Shown here: positions 51,278 to 61,145 of the stretch, in pieces | Position numbering within the stretch: the first letter of the stretch is position 1 | Layout of the letters: the number at the start of each line of letters is the position of its first letter | NCBI RefSeq assembly: GCF_024710485.1 | Contig: NZ_JANJUQ010000030.1 | Span: 62,001-126,000, forward strand | DNA: 64,000 nt | Reading direction: 5' to 3' | Origin: Flavobacterium sp. | Lineage (GTDB): Bacteria; Bacteroidota; Bacteroidia; Flavobacteriales; Flavobacteriaceae | Notes under the pieces: generated by a model | The model's input: the letters and a program-made list of their open reading frames with translations, nothing else | The model's database searches: none | Told to the model about the DNA's origin: nothing | Made by a program: the position numbers and the translations under genes

Positions 51278-51305
51278 AAAAAGACACAAGCGCTTGTGTC
51301 TTTTT
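51278..51305. terminator. Bidirectional terminator between the E1 gene and receiver gene
   Basis: A 28-bp perfect palindrome (AAAAAGACACAAGC/GCTTGTGTCTTTTT) separates the convergent E1 and receiver genes and has T tracts both ways. Confidence 0.85.
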
Positions 51306-51331: not shown

Positions 51332-51721
51332 TTATATACAATTCAGCAGGACTTCTTTGGATAATGGCTTGCTGATGTAACTTACTACATTTGGGTTTTG
51401 TTCTGCTCTCGATTTGTCAATCGGATTTAGTGAAGCTGATATTACGTGGATATGGCATTCAATATGTAAGTTGGATTTTACTTTCTCGAACTCATCTAAG
51501 AATTCCCAACCGTTGATTAAAGGCATATTTAAATCTAAAAAGATGACAACTCTTTTTCCGGGCTTAGATTCCTTGTTAATATTGATGATACCTTCTAAGG
51601 CTTGTTTGCCGTTAAAAAAGGTCTGAATATCGTCTGTTATGTTTAACAACGTAATGAGTCGTCGATGAAAATAATTCACAGACAAGTCGTCGTCGATGAG
51701 TATGATGGTATTTGATGTCAT
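51332..51721 (-). CDS. Single-domain response regulator (receiver only), minus-strand pair
   Basis: The 129-residue protein is a CheY-like receiver with no output domain: the acidic pocket ILIDDDLSVN, phospho-acceptor Asp in VVIFLDLNMPLING (about residue 65), the Ser/Thr in VISASLNP and Lys in YISKPLS. The Asn in DDLSVNYFHRR resembles the Rcp1/phytochrome-associated receivers. It overlaps the kinase stop by 4 nt (ATGA), so translation is coupled and the kinase is its probable phosphodonor. The downstream effect is unknown. Confidence 0.9.
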   Translation of the reverse strand: MTSNTIILIDDDLSVNYFHRRLITLLNITDDIQTFFNGKQALEGIININKESKPGKRVVIFLDLNMPLINGWEFLDEFEKVKSNLHIECHIHVISASLNPIDKSRAEQNPNVVSYISKPLSKEVLLNCI

Positions 51722-54339
51722 GGTTTTAAATGTTTTGAAAGGGTGAAAATGATCGAAGTGCCTTTATTGATCTCCGATTTTATCCATATTTTTCCATTGT
51801 GGATATCGACAATTTTTTTGCAATGGGCCAGTCCGATACCGAAGCCACTGTACTCATGTGAAGTGTGTAATCTTCTGAAAATTTGAAAAATCTGCTCAAA
51901 ATATTTTTCCTCGATGCCGATTCCGTTATCGGTTACTTTAAATTGCCAGTATTCTCTCAATTCTTTGGCTTCTATAGATACTATTGGAGCGGTCTTTTCT
52001 TTTCTGAATTTCAGTGCATTACTGATTAGATTTTGGAATAACAATCTAATGAAAATGGGATAGCATTCAATTACAGGAAGTGATTTAAAAGAAATTTCCG
52101 CATTCGTTTCTTTAATGTTAACGGAAAGATCTTCCAATACCTCAGTTAAGGTTTCATTCAGATTGAGTAATTGGGTTTCATTACCTTTATTGATTCTGTT
52201 GTACTCTAATAAGCCTGAAATAAGAAATCGCATTCTGTTGGCCGAATTATTGATAAAATTCAGGAATAGATTGCCTTCCTCATTTAATTGTTGGCTGAAT
52301 TCTTTCATCAACAAATCCGAATAGCTGATAATAGTAAGAAGCGGTTCTTGTAGATCATGTGAAGCGATGTAGTTAAACTGCTCCAATTCGGTATTTTGAC
52401 GCTTTAGAATTTCGTTTTGAAGTTGAATTTGTTTTTCTTTTTCTTTTCGACTGCTGATATCACGGATAAAAACAAAATATTTGTATTTATAGTCTAAATC
52501 ATCAACGGCAATCAATGTCAGCTCAATAGGAAATGTTTTTTTATGTCGATCAATCGCCATTAAATCCAAAGTGGTATTTGCCTTACCCGATAATTCTACT
52601 TTTTTAAAGAAATCGCTGATTTCAAAGCAATTATTTTCATCGGAAAGAATCAGTTCAGGAAGGTTTTTACCGATGACTTCGTTGAGCGACCAACCAAATA
52701 TTTTCTCAGCTTTTGTATTCCAAAATGAAATTGTGCAATCTTCGTTGATAATAACAATTCCTTCCATCGAAGATTGCATAATCAAGTTGTTTTGCTTTTC
52801 GGTTTTTGATAGTAGGCTTTGTAGGTTTTTGATATCGGAGATGTCAATCCCGTAGCCTATCATATAAGCAAGCTCGCCTTCGACATAAAAAGGGAAAAAC
52901 CTTCTCAAGATGTAGAATGTTCGGTCTCCTCTAATCACCTCATCCACCCATTCTACTTGTTTTCCTTTTTTTTTGGCTTCCTGAAAATACGTTTCTCGTT
53001 GGATGGCCATATCGTTATTAATCCCTTTTTTTCTACAATAATCAAAATTGTTTTTACCTATCATCCATTGGCGTAAATCCGGATCGGATATGCCATTAGG
53101 ATTGATAAAAAGATAGTTGTGATTTTTGTCAAAAACCGCTATATCCGCTGGTAAATTAAAAAGCACGGAGTCGTTAAACTCATTGCGTTTCTTGATTTCA
53201 AAATCGGCTATTTTTTGTTGTGAGATGTCCCAAACAATACCATTAAATACCATTTTACTGTTTTGAAAAACCGGAGTGGCACTCGCTTCAAACCATTTGA
53301 TACTGTTGTCTCTCAATATCATCCGACCGGTAAACTTAAAAGGCTCGTTGTATGAGATAGATTGTTGTGTAGCTTCAAGAAATGAAGGAATGTCTTCAGG
53401 GTGTATGCGCAATCGGGTTAACCAAGACTTGTAATGTGTTAGTATATTAAATCCGAAAATTTCCTGAAATGAATTGCTCACATGGTGGAAATAATGAACT
53501 TTATTTTTGAGTACATGAAACTGAAATAAAGCAACCGGCAGATGCTTTTGGAAAAAATCAATTTGAGATTTTTTTTCCTCAATGACAATTTTATCTTTTA
53601 GTTTTTCAGTTATATCATTGCAAATCAGTAAGTAGTAGTGTTTGTTTTCGAAGTTTCTTTTTTGAAAATCAATTAACAAATGTTTTTTTTTGATTTTTTC
53701 ACTAAACTTAAAATCATTTTTCTTGTCGACTTTTTGTAAAATTTCCGACCATTTTACAGCGTTTTGGAAATATTTAAAAATCTCCCAAATACATTTTTCA
53801 CTCAAATTGGCATCGGAGATTTTAACCATTTTTTGGGCAGCAGAGTTTTTGTAAACTAATTTTCCGTCTGAGTTAAAAACAAAAACTCCTTCTTTAATTT
53901 GATGGATGAATGCTTCAAAGAGACCAAGTTTCTTTTTTATGGAAGTCAGATTTTCATCAGTTTGTTTTTTGTTTGGTACTGTTTTATTAAAAGTAATGAT
54001 GTAGTACTCTTTTTCTCGAGTAAATAAAGAAAAGTTTAATTCGAGTTCAACCAAGTTGCCCTCAAGATCAGCAACTTTTTTTTGTGTGTTGAAAGGAAAA
54101 GATATGTTGTTAAAATTAATTTCCGAAATCAAAGAATCTATGACGCTATTGGGGAATATTGAAAGTATATTTTGTGCTTTTTGATTGATAAAAATGCACT
54201 CTCTCTCATCGTTAAAAGCAATAACAGACAAGGGTAATACTTGTAGGATTGATGAGATATTTTGTTCCAAATGGTGCATTTTCCTGTGTCTAGACTCATT
54301 TTTTCTCAAATTTAGAATCCTAATTTTTGCCTTTAGCAA
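51718..54339 (-). CDS. Soluble hybrid-free multi-PAS sensor histidine kinase (kinase 1)
   Basis: The 873-residue protein has no membrane segment. About five PAS-type domains can be placed in order (near 25-125, 150-255, 265-385, 395-510, 525-640), then a coiled coil, a HisKA domain with the phospho-acceptor His in IASHDLQEPLLTI (about 665), and a HATPase with NLISNALKFRKE, DNGIGIEEKYF and GFGIGLAHCKK. It is cytoplasmic and probably reads redox, ligands or gas. It overlaps its receiver by 4 nt. The start could be the ATG at 54279 (MHHLEQNISS) rather than 54339. Confidence 0.9.
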   Translation of the reverse strand: MLKAKIRILNLRKNESRHRKMHHLEQNISSILQVLPLSVIAFNDERECIFINQKAQNILSIFPNSVIDSLISEINFNNISFPFNTQKKVADLEGNLVELELNFSLFTREKEYYIITFNKTVPNKKQTDENLTSIKKKLGLFEAFIHQIKEGVFVFNSDGKLVYKNSAAQKMVKISDANLSEKCIWEIFKYFQNAVKWSEILQKVDKKNDFKFSEKIKKKHLLIDFQKRNFENKHYYLLICNDITEKLKDKIVIEEKKSQIDFFQKHLPVALFQFHVLKNKVHYFHHVSNSFQEIFGFNILTHYKSWLTRLRIHPEDIPSFLEATQQSISYNEPFKFTGRMILRDNSIKWFEASATPVFQNSKMVFNGIVWDISQQKIADFEIKKRNEFNDSVLFNLPADIAVFDKNHNYLFINPNGISDPDLRQWMIGKNNFDYCRKKGINNDMAIQRETYFQEAKKKGKQVEWVDEVIRGDRTFYILRRFFPFYVEGELAYMIGYGIDISDIKNLQSLLSKTEKQNNLIMQSSMEGIVIINEDCTISFWNTKAEKIFGWSLNEVIGKNLPELILSDENNCFEISDFFKKVELSGKANTTLDLMAIDRHKKTFPIELTLIAVDDLDYKYKYFVFIRDISSRKEKEKQIQLQNEILKRQNTELEQFNYIASHDLQEPLLTIISYSDLLMKEFSQQLNEEGNLFLNFINNSANRMRFLISGLLEYNRINKGNETQLLNLNETLTEVLEDLSVNIKETNAEISFKSLPVIECYPIFIRLLFQNLISNALKFRKEKTAPIVSIEAKELREYWQFKVTDNGIGIEEKYFEQIFQIFRRLHTSHEYSGFGIGLAHCKKIVDIHNGKIWIKSEINKGTSIIFTLSKHLKP

Positions 54340-54614
54340 TTTTAGGCTTAACGGTAGCTTTATTTATTTCAGTGGTAATTATATATAGACGAACGGTATA
54401 AATAGCTATTTTATTACAATTAACATTTGTTTAATCTTCCTGTTTTTTGAATCTCTATTTTCATTCGTCGAAAGATTTAAACCGCTAGCGGAAATAACTT
54501 CGTGTTTTATCTAATCCTAATTCTTAAAATTTAAAAAATGTAATAAATTGTTAGAGATGCGTCTATTTTGTCGCTTCTTTAAATCTAAGTCTTACATTTT
54601 TAAAAAGTTTTTCT
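54340..54614. other. Divergent intergenic region between kinase 1 and the FIST operon
   Basis: This 275-bp region must hold both promoters of the two divergent signalling operons. Candidate features: CTATTTTG, and TACATTTT as a weak -7 close to the FIST start; and a perfect 10-bp GC palindrome CCGCTAGCGG (54482-54491) that stands out in AT-rich DNA. No small gene or hairpin terminator was found. Confidence 0.5.
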
Positions 54615-55799
54615 ATGCTCCAATTTTACTCTGCTTCAACAAGAATAGTCAACACCAAAAGGGGTGTGGCCGAATGTTTGGAAATTGCTTGTCAAAGCGA
54701 TTACGAAAACGTTGATTTACTGATTTTTCACGCTTCTATTGGTCATGACTTTGATGCTATTTTAGCCGAATCTAAACGATTAGCACCTAATGCCGATGTT
54801 GTGGCTGCCTCTTGTTGTGGTGTTGTTGGAAGAGAAGGGGTGAGCGAATCAATGAAAGATATCGCAATGATGGCCATCAAGGGAAAAGATTACGCCTTGG
54901 CTTCAACGGATGGTTTGTACGGATACAATTCTTACGAGAAGGCTTTAGAGTTGGCGCAAAATTTAGCCTCACAAAAACAAGGAATCAATATGATTTATTT
55001 TTTGGGATCAGGTATTGATATCAATAACGATTTATGCATTAGAGCTTTTGAAGAGGTTTTTGGTTCTGAAGTAACCATTTTCGGAGCCACATCGTCTGAT
55101 AACATGAAGGGTTATGTAAGTTATCAAGCCATTAATGATGTGGTTTATGAACACGGTGCATTTGCGATAGGTTTCTGCGATCCAACACTAACGGTAGACA
55201 CTCAAGCTACTCACGGATTTATTGCTATCGGAGAACCTATGGTAGTTACCAAATCCGAAGGGCACATCATTAAAGAGCTTAACGGAAGACCGGCTTGGAC
55301 TGAGTATTTAAACCGTTTGGGATTAACAGATAAATCCGATTGTGGGAATACCATTCCTATTGGTGCTTTAGCAGAACAATTGTCTCCTGAATTAGCTAAA
55401 GAATATGGAAACAACCACATTTTGCGTGTGGTAACCAAACACGTTGGTGAGGAAATGTACTATGCTACTACTTGTCCTGAGGGAACTGAACTTTGGTTAA
55501 CAGTTCGGGATGAGGAAGTTATCTTTAACGAAATGGAGCGTATTGTAGAATGTATCAACACTCGAAATAATGGCAAAAAGCCGGTAGCAGTCTTTCATGC
55601 CGATTGTTTGGCCAGAGGTCGTTTTTTAACAGACAGAATCTTGAAAGAAGAATTAGTCTTTAAAATGCAAGCTCCTTTTTATGCTGAAAACGGTTGTCCT
55701 CCATGGTTAGGGATGTATGGCTTTGGAGAGTTTGCTCGTTTAGGAAATAAAAATACATATCACAATTACACTACCGCACTCTATGTAATCTACCGATAA
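54615..55799 (+). CDS. Stand-alone FIST-domain (FIST_N/FIST_C) sensor protein
   Basis: The 394-residue protein contains FIST_N (about 20-215; LIFHASIGHDFDAIL, GATSSDNMKGY) and FIST_C (about 225-375; GFIAIGEPMVVTKSEGHIIKEL, FHADCLARGRF). FIST domains bind small ligands. In Pseudomonas and Vibrio, FIST proteins called NosP bind heme and nitric oxide and control a co-transcribed kinase. Here a soluble PAS kinase follows after 1 nt, fitting that arrangement. Heme binding is inferred only; His residues in HASIGHD, YEHGAF, THGFIA and NNHILRVV are possible ligands. No transmembrane segment. Confidence 0.9.
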   Translation: MLQFYSASTRIVNTKRGVAECLEIACQSDYENVDLLIFHASIGHDFDAILAESKRLAPNADVVAASCCGVVGREGVSESMKDIAMMAIKGKDYALASTDGLYGYNSYEKALELAQNLASQKQGINMIYFLGSGIDINNDLCIRAFEEVFGSEVTIFGATSSDNMKGYVSYQAINDVVYEHGAFAIGFCDPTLTVDTQATHGFIAIGEPMVVTKSEGHIIKELNGRPAWTEYLNRLGLTDKSDCGNTIPIGALAEQLSPELAKEYGNNHILRVVTKHVGEEMYYATTCPEGTELWLTVRDEEVIFNEMERIVECINTRNNGKKPVAVFHADCLARGRFLTDRILKEELVFKMQAPFYAENGCPPWLGMYGFGEFARLGNKNTYHNYTTALYVIYR

Positions 55800-55800
55800 G

Positions 55801-58308
55801 ATGTTCCCAATGAAAACCAGAAATAATTTCGATTCGTTGCTTAGGGAATACCAAGAATTACAGTTGCGTGTAACTCGTTTTTCCTATATAGAGCAACAGC
55901 TAATAAACGCTCAAGACAAACTTGATCACGAGTTGGTTTTGTATAAGCGGTTGAATAAGTTCAGCAATAATGCTCTAAAAAGCAAAAAGCTGGAAGATTT
56001 TTTAACCATGGCTGTAGAAGGAATTGTGGATGTGTTGGAAGTAGAATCAGCTGCAATCTTAATTGTAGAAAATCAATCCGGGAATAGTATTTTCTTCAGC
56101 GAAAGTATTCACTTTGATACAAAAGAAGATCAAAGTAAAGTGTCTGAAGATTTGTTGAATTTGGCCGAAATAGTCGGAAAGGCAAAATCACTGATTATCT
56201 CTTCCAGACGATTGAAGTTATTAAATTATCTGTCGGACTATTCAGATGCCGTGTTTCATGCGGCCGTCGATTCAAACCTGAATATTTCGGTTTATCTTAT
56301 CGGATTAGTGTCTGAAAAAAAAGCACCTTTCTATGAAAAATTGTACGACAAACACGAAACTATTTTCAGCTTGTTTACCCAGCAATTTCTTTCAATATTA
56401 ACCAGCTTTTACCAAAATAGAAAAATACAAGATCAAATAGCCAAAATTTCAAGTTCTGAAATTGAACTTAAAAAGTTATCACTCATTGCTACCAAAACCA
56501 AAAACGGTGTTATCATTACCGATGAAAAAGACATTATAGAATGGGTTAATGAATCGTTTGTAAAAATGTCGGGTTATTTATTTGAAGATGTTTACGGAAA
56601 GCAAACCAAAGATTTGTTTGACAACTTTATTGTTGATTTTTCCGAAAAGAAAAGGATTTTTAAAGCCCTCAAAAACAAGCAAAATATCGAACTCACGCTA
56701 CTCAACAATACTAAGGACGGTAAGTTGTATTACAGCCAAATCGAAATTATTCCTGTGTTTGATGAGCTCAAAAGACACATCAATTACATTTTTGTCATCA
56801 AGGACATTACAAACGAAGTCGAGTTTAAAGCAGAAATTCTAAGAATGAATTCCCGATTTGAATTGATTTCAGACAAATCACAAATCGGAATTTGGGAATG
56901 GAACAAAGAAGTAAATGATTCGACTTGGAACAACATATTGATTAAGCAATACGGTGCCGAAAAGCATTCCATCAAAGAAGGCTTTTATGCTTTTTGGCTG
57001 AACTCTTTGCATCCCGATGATAAGAAAAGAGTCATCGAAAATCGAGATAGACTCCTTAATTGTGAAATCGACAGTATTGAGCAAGATTATAGAGTTATTC
57101 GTCAAAACGACCAATCGGTTCGGTATCTGAAAACGCTAACCATAGGTGAAAAAGATGCCAAAGGAGAAGTAATTCGTTTGGTAGGAAGTTCAATAGACAT
57201 AACCGACAAAAAACGAGCCGAGGAAAAAGTAGCTTCATTGAAACAATTTTATGAAAGTATAATCAATCATTTACCAAACAAAATTGCGGTATTTAATGCT
57301 TCATGTGAGTTAATCTATTTTAACCAAGCAATGTCTGACTGTAATCCGTTTTGGGGTGATTTTCTTTTTAAATCAATTTATGACGTACATCCCGAAGAAA
57401 CTAATCAAACCACAGTTAATAAGCTGATTTTCCATATCCAAAATGCTATTAACAGCAAATCAGCAGTCAAGTATGAAGAAGTAATTGTCAAAGACGAAAA
57501 TGAAATCGAATTACTTAACACAGTCCTGCCTTTTTTTAGAGAAGATAAATTGGAGTACATTATCTTATCCGGTGTAGACATTAGTGAACTTAATAAAATT
57601 CAAAAAGACTTGCTCAAAAATAACTTTGAGCTGCAAAAGGTCAATTCAGAACTCGACAACTTTGTTTATAGAGTATCACACGATTTAAGATCTCCGTTGC
57701 TTTCTATTAAAGGATTAATTTCTTTAATAGATTTTGATGAAGTCAATCCAAGCTTGGCGGAATACATTAAATTAATTGAGAATAGCGCTAGTAGAATGGA
57801 TTCCTCTATTCAAGATATTTTGGAGTACTCCAGAAATTCACGATTAGAAGTCAAACACGAAGAAGTTAATCTCAAAGAAATGGTTTTTGAAATATTTGAT
57901 GATACCAAATATTCAGCAGATTCAAAAATCGATTTAATCTATGAAAGTAGTATTTCTGACAGCATCATAACCGACAAATTCCGAATAGGTGTATTGCTCA
58001 AAAATTTAATAGGAAACTCGGTTAAGTACAAACGAAACAATGTAAACTCTTTTGTCAAGTTTTCACTGACTAAGAACAATAAAATGATTACCATAACAAT
58101 TACAGATAATGGTAAGGGAATCGAAAAAGAAAGTCTGTCTAAAGTTTTTGAAATGTTCTACAGAGGCTGTAGCGACAGTGTAGGGTCTGGTTTGGGACTC
58201 TACATCTGTAAAGAGATTATAGAAAAACTTGAAGGAACCATAACCTTAAAATCGAAATATGGACTAGGAACCGAAATCAATATAAAACTACCACTAAACA
58301 AATTATGA
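55801..58308 (+). CDS. Soluble GAF/multi-PAS sensor histidine kinase (kinase 2)
   Basis: The 835-residue protein is soluble. Order: N-terminal coiled coil (about 1-55), GAF-like domain (about 60-215; LEVESAAILIVEN), three PAS-type domains (near 225-345, 350-475, 485-595), HisKA with phospho-acceptor His in RVSHDLRSPLLSI (about 630), HATPase with NLIGNSVKYKRN, DNGKGIEKESL and GSGLGLYICKE. It begins 1 nt after the FIST gene and overlaps the following receiver by 4 nt, so the FIST sensor, kinase and receiver probably form one pathway. Confidence 0.9.
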   Translation: MFPMKTRNNFDSLLREYQELQLRVTRFSYIEQQLINAQDKLDHELVLYKRLNKFSNNALKSKKLEDFLTMAVEGIVDVLEVESAAILIVENQSGNSIFFSESIHFDTKEDQSKVSEDLLNLAEIVGKAKSLIISSRRLKLLNYLSDYSDAVFHAAVDSNLNISVYLIGLVSEKKAPFYEKLYDKHETIFSLFTQQFLSILTSFYQNRKIQDQIAKISSSEIELKKLSLIATKTKNGVIITDEKDIIEWVNESFVKMSGYLFEDVYGKQTKDLFDNFIVDFSEKKRIFKALKNKQNIELTLLNNTKDGKLYYSQIEIIPVFDELKRHINYIFVIKDITNEVEFKAEILRMNSRFELISDKSQIGIWEWNKEVNDSTWNNILIKQYGAEKHSIKEGFYAFWLNSLHPDDKKRVIENRDRLLNCEIDSIEQDYRVIRQNDQSVRYLKTLTIGEKDAKGEVIRLVGSSIDITDKKRAEEKVASLKQFYESIINHLPNKIAVFNASCELIYFNQAMSDCNPFWGDFLFKSIYDVHPEETNQTTVNKLIFHIQNAINSKSAVKYEEVIVKDENEIELLNTVLPFFREDKLEYIILSGVDISELNKIQKDLLKNNFELQKVNSELDNFVYRVSHDLRSPLLSIKGLISLIDFDEVNPSLAEYIKLIENSASRMDSSIQDILEYSRNSRLEVKHEEVNLKEMVFEIFDDTKYSADSKIDLIYESSISDSIITDKFRIGVLLKNLIGNSVKYKRNNVNSFVKFSLTKNNKMITITITDNGKGIEKESLSKVFEMFYRGCSDSVGSGLGLYICKEIIEKLEGTITLKSKYGLGTEINIKLPLNKL

Positions 58309-58712
58309 GAATGAAATACATACTTATTGATGATGATCCAATTATTAATTTGGTGCACAAAAAAGTAATTATGAAAACGGATTTAGAGGCCGAGGTAGCC
58401 GATTTTATTTCCGGAAGAAAGGCCCTCGATTATTTTCAAAGCAAACAGGGGCAATTAGCAGATATTGTATTGCTCGATATTAATATGCCCGAAATGAATG
58501 GCTTTGAATTCCTCGACGCTCTGCTCAAAAATAAAAATATCGATTGCAATAAACTCAAAATCTTTATATTAACCTCTTCTCTGAATGTAAAAGATAAAGA
58601 GCAGGCCGGAAAATATCCAATTCTCAAAGGCTACTTAGAAAAACCCTTAAACATTTTAAATTTTAAAGAACTTATTCAACAAGGTTTTAATTTTCAAGGA
58701 TATACGGTATAG
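58305..58712 (+). CDS. Single-domain response regulator (receiver only), plus-strand pair
   Basis: The 135-residue protein is a CheY-like receiver: ILIDDDPIINLVHKK, acceptor Asp in IVLLDINMPEMNG (about 60), ILTSSLNV and YLEKPLN. It has no output domain. Its ATG overlaps the kinase stop (ATGA). The IINLVHKK segment resembles the one in kinase 1's partner (SVNYFHRR), and both look like Rcp1-type receivers, so the two pairs are likely paralogous duplicates that have diverged. Confidence 0.9.
   Translation: MRMKYILIDDDPIINLVHKKVIMKTDLEAEVADFISGRKALDYFQSKQGQLADIVLLDINMPEMNGFEFLDALLKNKNIDCNKLKIFILTSSLNVKDKEQAGKYPILKGYLEKPLNILNFKELIQQGFNFQGYTV

Positions 58713-58831: not shown

Positions 58832-61145
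<2,314 letters not shown>

Follow-up and report, generated by a model that had tools for sequence, protein, structure and literature searches.

The window analysed here, a stretch of 64,000 nucleotides, belongs to contig 12 of a 2.7 Mb Flavobacterium-like genome whose nearest named relatives are Flavobacterium. On the minus strand lie a receiver gene, RR1 (51332-51721), and a histidine kinase gene, HK1 (51718-54339). On the plus strand lie the gene of a FIST sensor of 394 amino acids (54615-55799), a second kinase gene, HK2 (55801-58308), and a second receiver gene, RR2 (58305-58712), followed 137 nt downstream by KatG (58850-61042, same strand). This layout had been described in a first-pass annotation, and it matches the positions of the open reading frames, as do the 4-nt overlaps in both kinase-receiver pairs. 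The gap of 1 nt given there between FIST and HK2 holds on the listed starts but is probably 10 nt, because the relatives begin HK2 at the second methionine (M4, position 55810), which is probably the true start. For HK1, the TTG start is doubtful, and the ATG at codon 21 (54279), which agrees better with the relatives, is the likely one. The divergent genes HK1 and FIST are separated by an intergenic region (54340-54614) that shares similar blocks with the corresponding region of one relative, locus L014; a promoter scan of this region gave pattern counts equal to those of shuffled sequences. At the other end of the minus-strand pair, between an oxoacid dehydrogenase gene and RR1, a 12-pair inverted repeat with a T run (51278-51305) is likely a bidirectional terminator.

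Both pairs carry the elements of functional two-component systems, namely the HisKA histidine (His661 in HK1 and His627 in HK2), the ATP-site motifs and full receiver pockets; in RR2, the acidic pocket, the phosphoacceptor Asp (in LDINMP), the Ser/Thr and the Lys are all present. Each receiver consists of one receiver domain and nothing else according to Pfam, so the earlier description of RR1 and RR2 as receivers without output domains is borne out. The kinases had been called soluble and multi-PAS. Pfam indeed finds several PAS domains in HK1 and in HK2 (in the latter at approximately 235-337 and 376-462), besides HisKA and HATPase_c, and hydropathy reveals no convincing transmembrane helix in either; the best 19-residue values in the two kinases are 1.37 and 1.70, and the 1.70 segment lies inside a GAF fold. 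The GAF domain claimed for HK2 is missed by Pfam and backed by fold, since residues of approximately 60-180 match GAF structures in Foldseek (E ~1e-5). In the AlphaFold model, the N-terminal residues 1-239 of HK2 (mean pLDDT 85.8) form a long helix (residues 5-59), the GAF fold and a second long helix. Conservation in HK2 is 0.53-0.54 over residues 1-80 versus 0.21-0.24 over residues 81-160. Among the 1,193 open reading frames of the fetched loci, a sample centred on FIST and H-NOX and thus not an unbiased one, the helix core LQLRVTRFS occurs only in kinases adjoining FIST genes of the window type. On these sequence features, the helix ahead of the GAF fold is a candidate docking site for FIST.

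Extent of the conserved unit

In 11 relatives, the FIST gene is followed on the same strand by the gene of an HK2-like kinase and then by that of an RR2-like receiver. These relatives comprise the complete set of seven loci in the genome collection (L014-L020) and four loci from whole-genome searches (L135, L141, L142 and L144). The FIST-kinase 2-receiver unit that had been proposed from the window (54615-58712, plus strand) is thus a three-gene operon that is conserved in a small set of freshwater bacteria of the Flavobacterium type. In the same loci, with the nearest relative excepted, FIST is 68-80% identical to its counterparts, versus approximately 39-64% for HK2.

The surroundings of this operon are much less constant. 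Only two loci, the window and L014, have HK1-RR1 next to FIST; L014 is the nearest relative and shares the flanking genes, while the 10 other FIST-HK2-RR2 operons have no HK1-RR1 alongside. Homologues of HK1-RR1 elsewhere (approximately 38-48% identical) are tightly paired in each of the 10 loci examined, and none of these pairs stands beside a FIST gene. For KatG, the place after RR2 is likewise confined to the window and L014; its position on the same strand after the pair had been noted correctly, but its membership in the unit is ruled out, and it is an equally local neighbour. On the same survey, the two-pair island of the first-pass annotation is ruled out. The unit is therefore FIST-HK2-RR2 and the 'island' is a local arrangement, in which HK1-RR1, a two-component module in its own right, is in this lineage the divergent neighbour of the operon.

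Some variant loci were also encountered. In L143 (G112:C60), FIST and the receiver are kept and the kinase is cleanly deleted, with approximately 2.5 kb replaced by 43 nt in comparison to L019. In G112, H-NOX too is matched only incompletely, which may point to a system in decay or to the edge of a contig. In distant Bacteroidota genomes (L151 and L152), tandem arrays of 3-5 FIST genes are located beside kinases.

A divergent FIST subfamily

The assignment to the FIST family is clear, with 96.1 bits for FIST_N (PF08495, cut-off 23.2) and 41.3 bits for FIST_C (PF10442, cut-off 28.5), and this gene is the single FIST gene of its genome among the matches listed. The protein belongs to a rare subfamily, within which identities are 68-89%; to other FIST proteins it is only approximately 17-27% identical, the others found in Flavobacterium standing at 19-27%. 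Of 400 genomes in the genus, 8 have a FIST gene of this window type, the window genome among them; such genes were also found in G456, which belongs to another family, and in a few further genomes. The earlier proposal that the protein is of the NosP type does not hold. Its score with the NosP equivalog model (NCBIfam NF041558) is 28.6 bits, far under the curated cut-off of 450, and filing it as NosP is ruled out for this reason. The same cut-off is also missed by an H-NOX-linked FIST of Flavobacterium (60.4 bits) and by a FIST from a Legionella plasmid (75.2 bits); plasmid searches for true NosP returned only remote FIST proteins (Microvirga, Legionella and Azospirillum), none above the NosP cut-off among those scored.

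Across 18 diverse FIST proteins, 12 residues are invariant, including C331 and the group H383-N384-T386, and E372 is near-invariant in the FIST alignment. Four cysteines (C67, C68, C331 and C361) are invariant across 13 members of the subfamily, and C67, C68 and C361 are specific to it, as other FIST proteins do not share them. The AlphaFold model of the window FIST has a mean pLDDT of 68.6, with weak loops. Its closest structural match is human FBXO22, followed by barbiturase and cyanuric acid hydrolases. In an alignment with FBXO22, C331 and E372 correspond to C326 and E362; this alignment is not significant by sequence (E ~0.7) and gains support because the folds match. A search of the PDB with the subfamily alignment gave no match, and with a wider alignment it gave FBXO22 only (E ~0.7), besides chance matches to ribosomal and ATPase entries. 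In FBXO22, C326 is reported to be a reactive cysteine and E362 its activating neighbour (PMC13316043). The correspondence of C331/E372 to this reactive pair suggests an ancient site, which may be functional in bacterial sensors too.

Nitric oxide and H-NOX

The window genome encodes NirK, a copper nitrite reductase, above the model cut-off. The denitrification cluster in which it lies (L198, G000:C43:8000-25371) contains an Rrf2 regulator, cytochrome c, NorB-like, NirK, NorQ-like and NorD-like genes; NorB is named from a COX1 family match and its context, because no NorB model gave a score. With NirK and Nor-like genes in one cluster, the cell should both produce and remove NO. The genome also has its own H-NOX operon, the one found among the matches listed, which is located on contig 15 and consists of receiver, H-NOX, kinase, Hpt and LytTR regulator genes. 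The Hpt gene of this operon is one of two found in the genome among the matches listed.

In the set of 400 genomes, H-NOX is present in 6 of the 8 genomes with a window-type FIST versus 61 of the 392 others (Fisher p = 4e-4, kinship ignored), and it is also present in two of the four further genomes with a window-type FIST. Among these 12 genomes, H-NOX is on another contig in seven and beside the operon in one, G080, where the FIST operon starts approximately 2 kb after a complete receiver-H-NOX-kinase-Hpt-LytTR operon. In the remaining four (G108, G258, G456 and G798), no H-NOX was found; since G456 is rated 100% complete, H-NOX is not required. The occurrence of two distinct types of H-NOX operon in the co-occurring genomes argues against a single inherited event.

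The other, distant FIST genes of Flavobacterium are located within 6 kb of H-NOX in 42 of 110 loci. This H-NOX-linked second FIST is absent from all six H-NOX genomes of the window type and present in 42 of the 61 other H-NOX genomes (p = 0.002, kinship ignored), as if, judging by gene content, one arrangement were replacing the other. In the cases examined, among them L136, L137, L140, L147 and L166, a single relay operon has the order RR-HNOX-HK-FIST-HK-Hpt-LytTR; here H-NOX and FIST are two candidate NO sensors, each next to its own kinase. A small protein of approximately 120 amino acids recurs after the H-NOX-LytTR operon (L148, 1149-1523; L144, 5692-6066; L160, 12153-12509; L195, 188-547). 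It has no Pfam match in the one case tested and is a possible target or partner of the regulator.

HK1-RR1 has a connection to H-NOX of its own. In G342 and G211, homologues of HK1-RR1 directly precede the H-NOX operon, and the two pairs look closely related. Of the genomes with full-length HK1 relatives, 8 of 12 carry H-NOX, versus 59 of the 388 others (p = 1e-4), at an identity threshold that was picked after the hits had been seen. Since FIST genes near H-NOX are already on record (PMC8738867), what is new here is the form of the association and not the association as such. Overall, four lines link the FIST operon to NO, namely the NirK/Nor genes, the H-NOX of the same genome, the co-occurrence and the physical nearness; all are indirect, and none is decisive. 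The NO-type signalling first suggested for the locus is thus favoured by genome data, for the operon and separately for HK1-RR1, while the NosP identity on which it leaned is not.

Signal, relay and relation to known systems

NosP has been shown in Burkholderia to bind and control its co-encoded soluble kinase (PMC12570481), and by analogy HK2 would have FIST as its detachable sensor. The reading that we prefer, which in our judgement is about evenly poised between right and wrong, is that FIST is a separate cytoplasmic sensor subunit of HK2, with NO as the most likely signal, docking on the HK2 helix and onward relay through RR2. The signal would be NO, or heme that would bind NO, and the NO would come from the organism's own NirK. 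FIST would dock on the N-terminal helix that precedes the GAF fold, and the docked FIST would presumably control HK2 by altering its autophosphorylation at His627. HK2 would then set the phosphorylation state of RR2, which, having no output domain, would have to act by contact or hand the phosphate on. The best candidate downstream partner would be the H-NOX-associated Hpt-LytTR relay on contig 15, whose Hpt, as one of two found in the genome, would be a natural next step of the relay.

When FIST was first described by Borziak and Zhulin in 2007, the sensing of small ligands (amino acids) was reportedly proposed. Following this line, the window FIST might sense an unrelated small cytoplasmic ligand, and its link to H-NOX might reflect a shared lifestyle only. 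FIST is a broad family that occurs in many contexts, H-NOX was not detected in 4 of the 12 genomes with a window-type FIST, and the barbiturase and cyanuric acid hydrolase matches, next after FBXO22, suggest a small-molecule pocket. Two observations speak against a mere coincidence of lifestyle, namely that the two operons are neighbours in G080 and that the other group of Flavobacterium FIST genes is strongly linked to H-NOX; we consider this explanation possible but rather unlikely.

The alignment of C331/E372 with the reactive pair reported in FBXO22 (PMC13316043), the rank of FBXO22 as top match of the FIST model and the subfamily cysteines make a thiol mechanism possible, beside heme or instead of it. 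FIST would then be a thiol or electrophile sensor, in which NO-derived species, peroxide or aldehydes are sensed by reaction with C331 beside E372, with C67, C68 and C361, and the activity of HK2 changes as a result. However, the sequence match to FBXO22 is by itself not significant, the model loops that carry these residues are of low confidence, too weak to tell whether the cysteines lie close to one another, and the conserved cysteines may be structural. We regard this explanation as unlikely. A narrower version, in which C331/E372 and the extra cysteines form a subfamily thiol switch for NO-derived species that acts via the HK2 helix on the unlinked H-NOX Hpt-LytTR relay, would be a highly improbable conjunction; if it were true, a single output would combine two sensors of NO, one based on heme and the other on thiols.

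An island in which cross-talk or memory connects kinase 1 with kinase 2 is very improbable: the identical arrangement in L014, the same general type of HK1 and HK2 with one single-domain receiver each and the H-NOX connection of HK1-RR1 homologues are in its favour, but L014 is the closest relative and shares the flanking genes as well, and 10 other FIST-HK2-RR2 operons and 10 other HK1-RR1 pairs each stand without the other.

With FIST as the sensor subunit of HK2, the operon can be set beside known systems. The NosP-NahK/NosK-NosR systems of Legionella, Burkholderia, Pseudomonas and Vibrio similarly co-encode a FIST protein with a soluble histidine kinase, usually together with a receiver, and NosP serves its kinase as an auxiliary sensor (PMC12570481, PMC11237717, PMC8846402); HK2 likewise stands directly downstream of FIST in the window and in the 11 relatives. 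The differences are that the window FIST reaches only 28.6 of the 450 bits of the NosP family cut-off, that HK2 has a helix-GAF-PAS front whereas the NosP kinase has a short N-terminus, and that RR2 is a receiver only, lacking the c-di-GMP output domain of the NosR/NarR type (NosR model, 28.3 of 400 bits). A c-di-GMP receiver is not universal in these systems, as in Vibrio cholerae the kinase on which NosP acts signals to LuxU (PMC6769237).

Operons of a sensor, a soluble kinase and an output-less CheY-like receiver are known with H-NOX (PMC11237717, PMC8738867), as in Hnox2-Lpg2458-Lpg2457 of Legionella and in the Flavobacterium loci L153-L155 and L161; the sensor of the window operon is FIST, whereas theirs is H-NOX. 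With its lack of an output domain, RR2 recalls the CheY-like receiver of the Legionella Hnox2 system, for which no target is known either (PMC11237717). The RR-HNOX-HK-FIST-HK-Hpt-LytTR operons of the same genus resemble the window operon in placing FIST and a kinase in a putative NO-type relay. However, their FIST is 18-27% identical to that of the window, and they hold two kinases, Hpt and a DNA-binding LytTR in one operon, whereas the H-NOX part of the window genome is elsewhere and has no FIST. The FIST domain of human FBXO22 shares the fold, as best structural match, and the same Cys-Glu pair, but FBXO22 is a substrate receptor of a ubiquitin ligase and has no kinase.

FIST-HK2-RR2 is thus ordinary in kind, a FIST auxiliary sensor with a two-component pair, and new as a subfamily and as an arrangement. 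To our knowledge, FIST proteins are widespread, and few outside the NosP branch have a demonstrated ligand. The subfamily represented by the operon described here is rare and compact, with a single kinase and a single receiver, and it occurs in genomes that encode a second NO sensor, H-NOX, separately. It therefore allows a clean test of what the ligand of FIST is and of whether two NO sensors share one relay.
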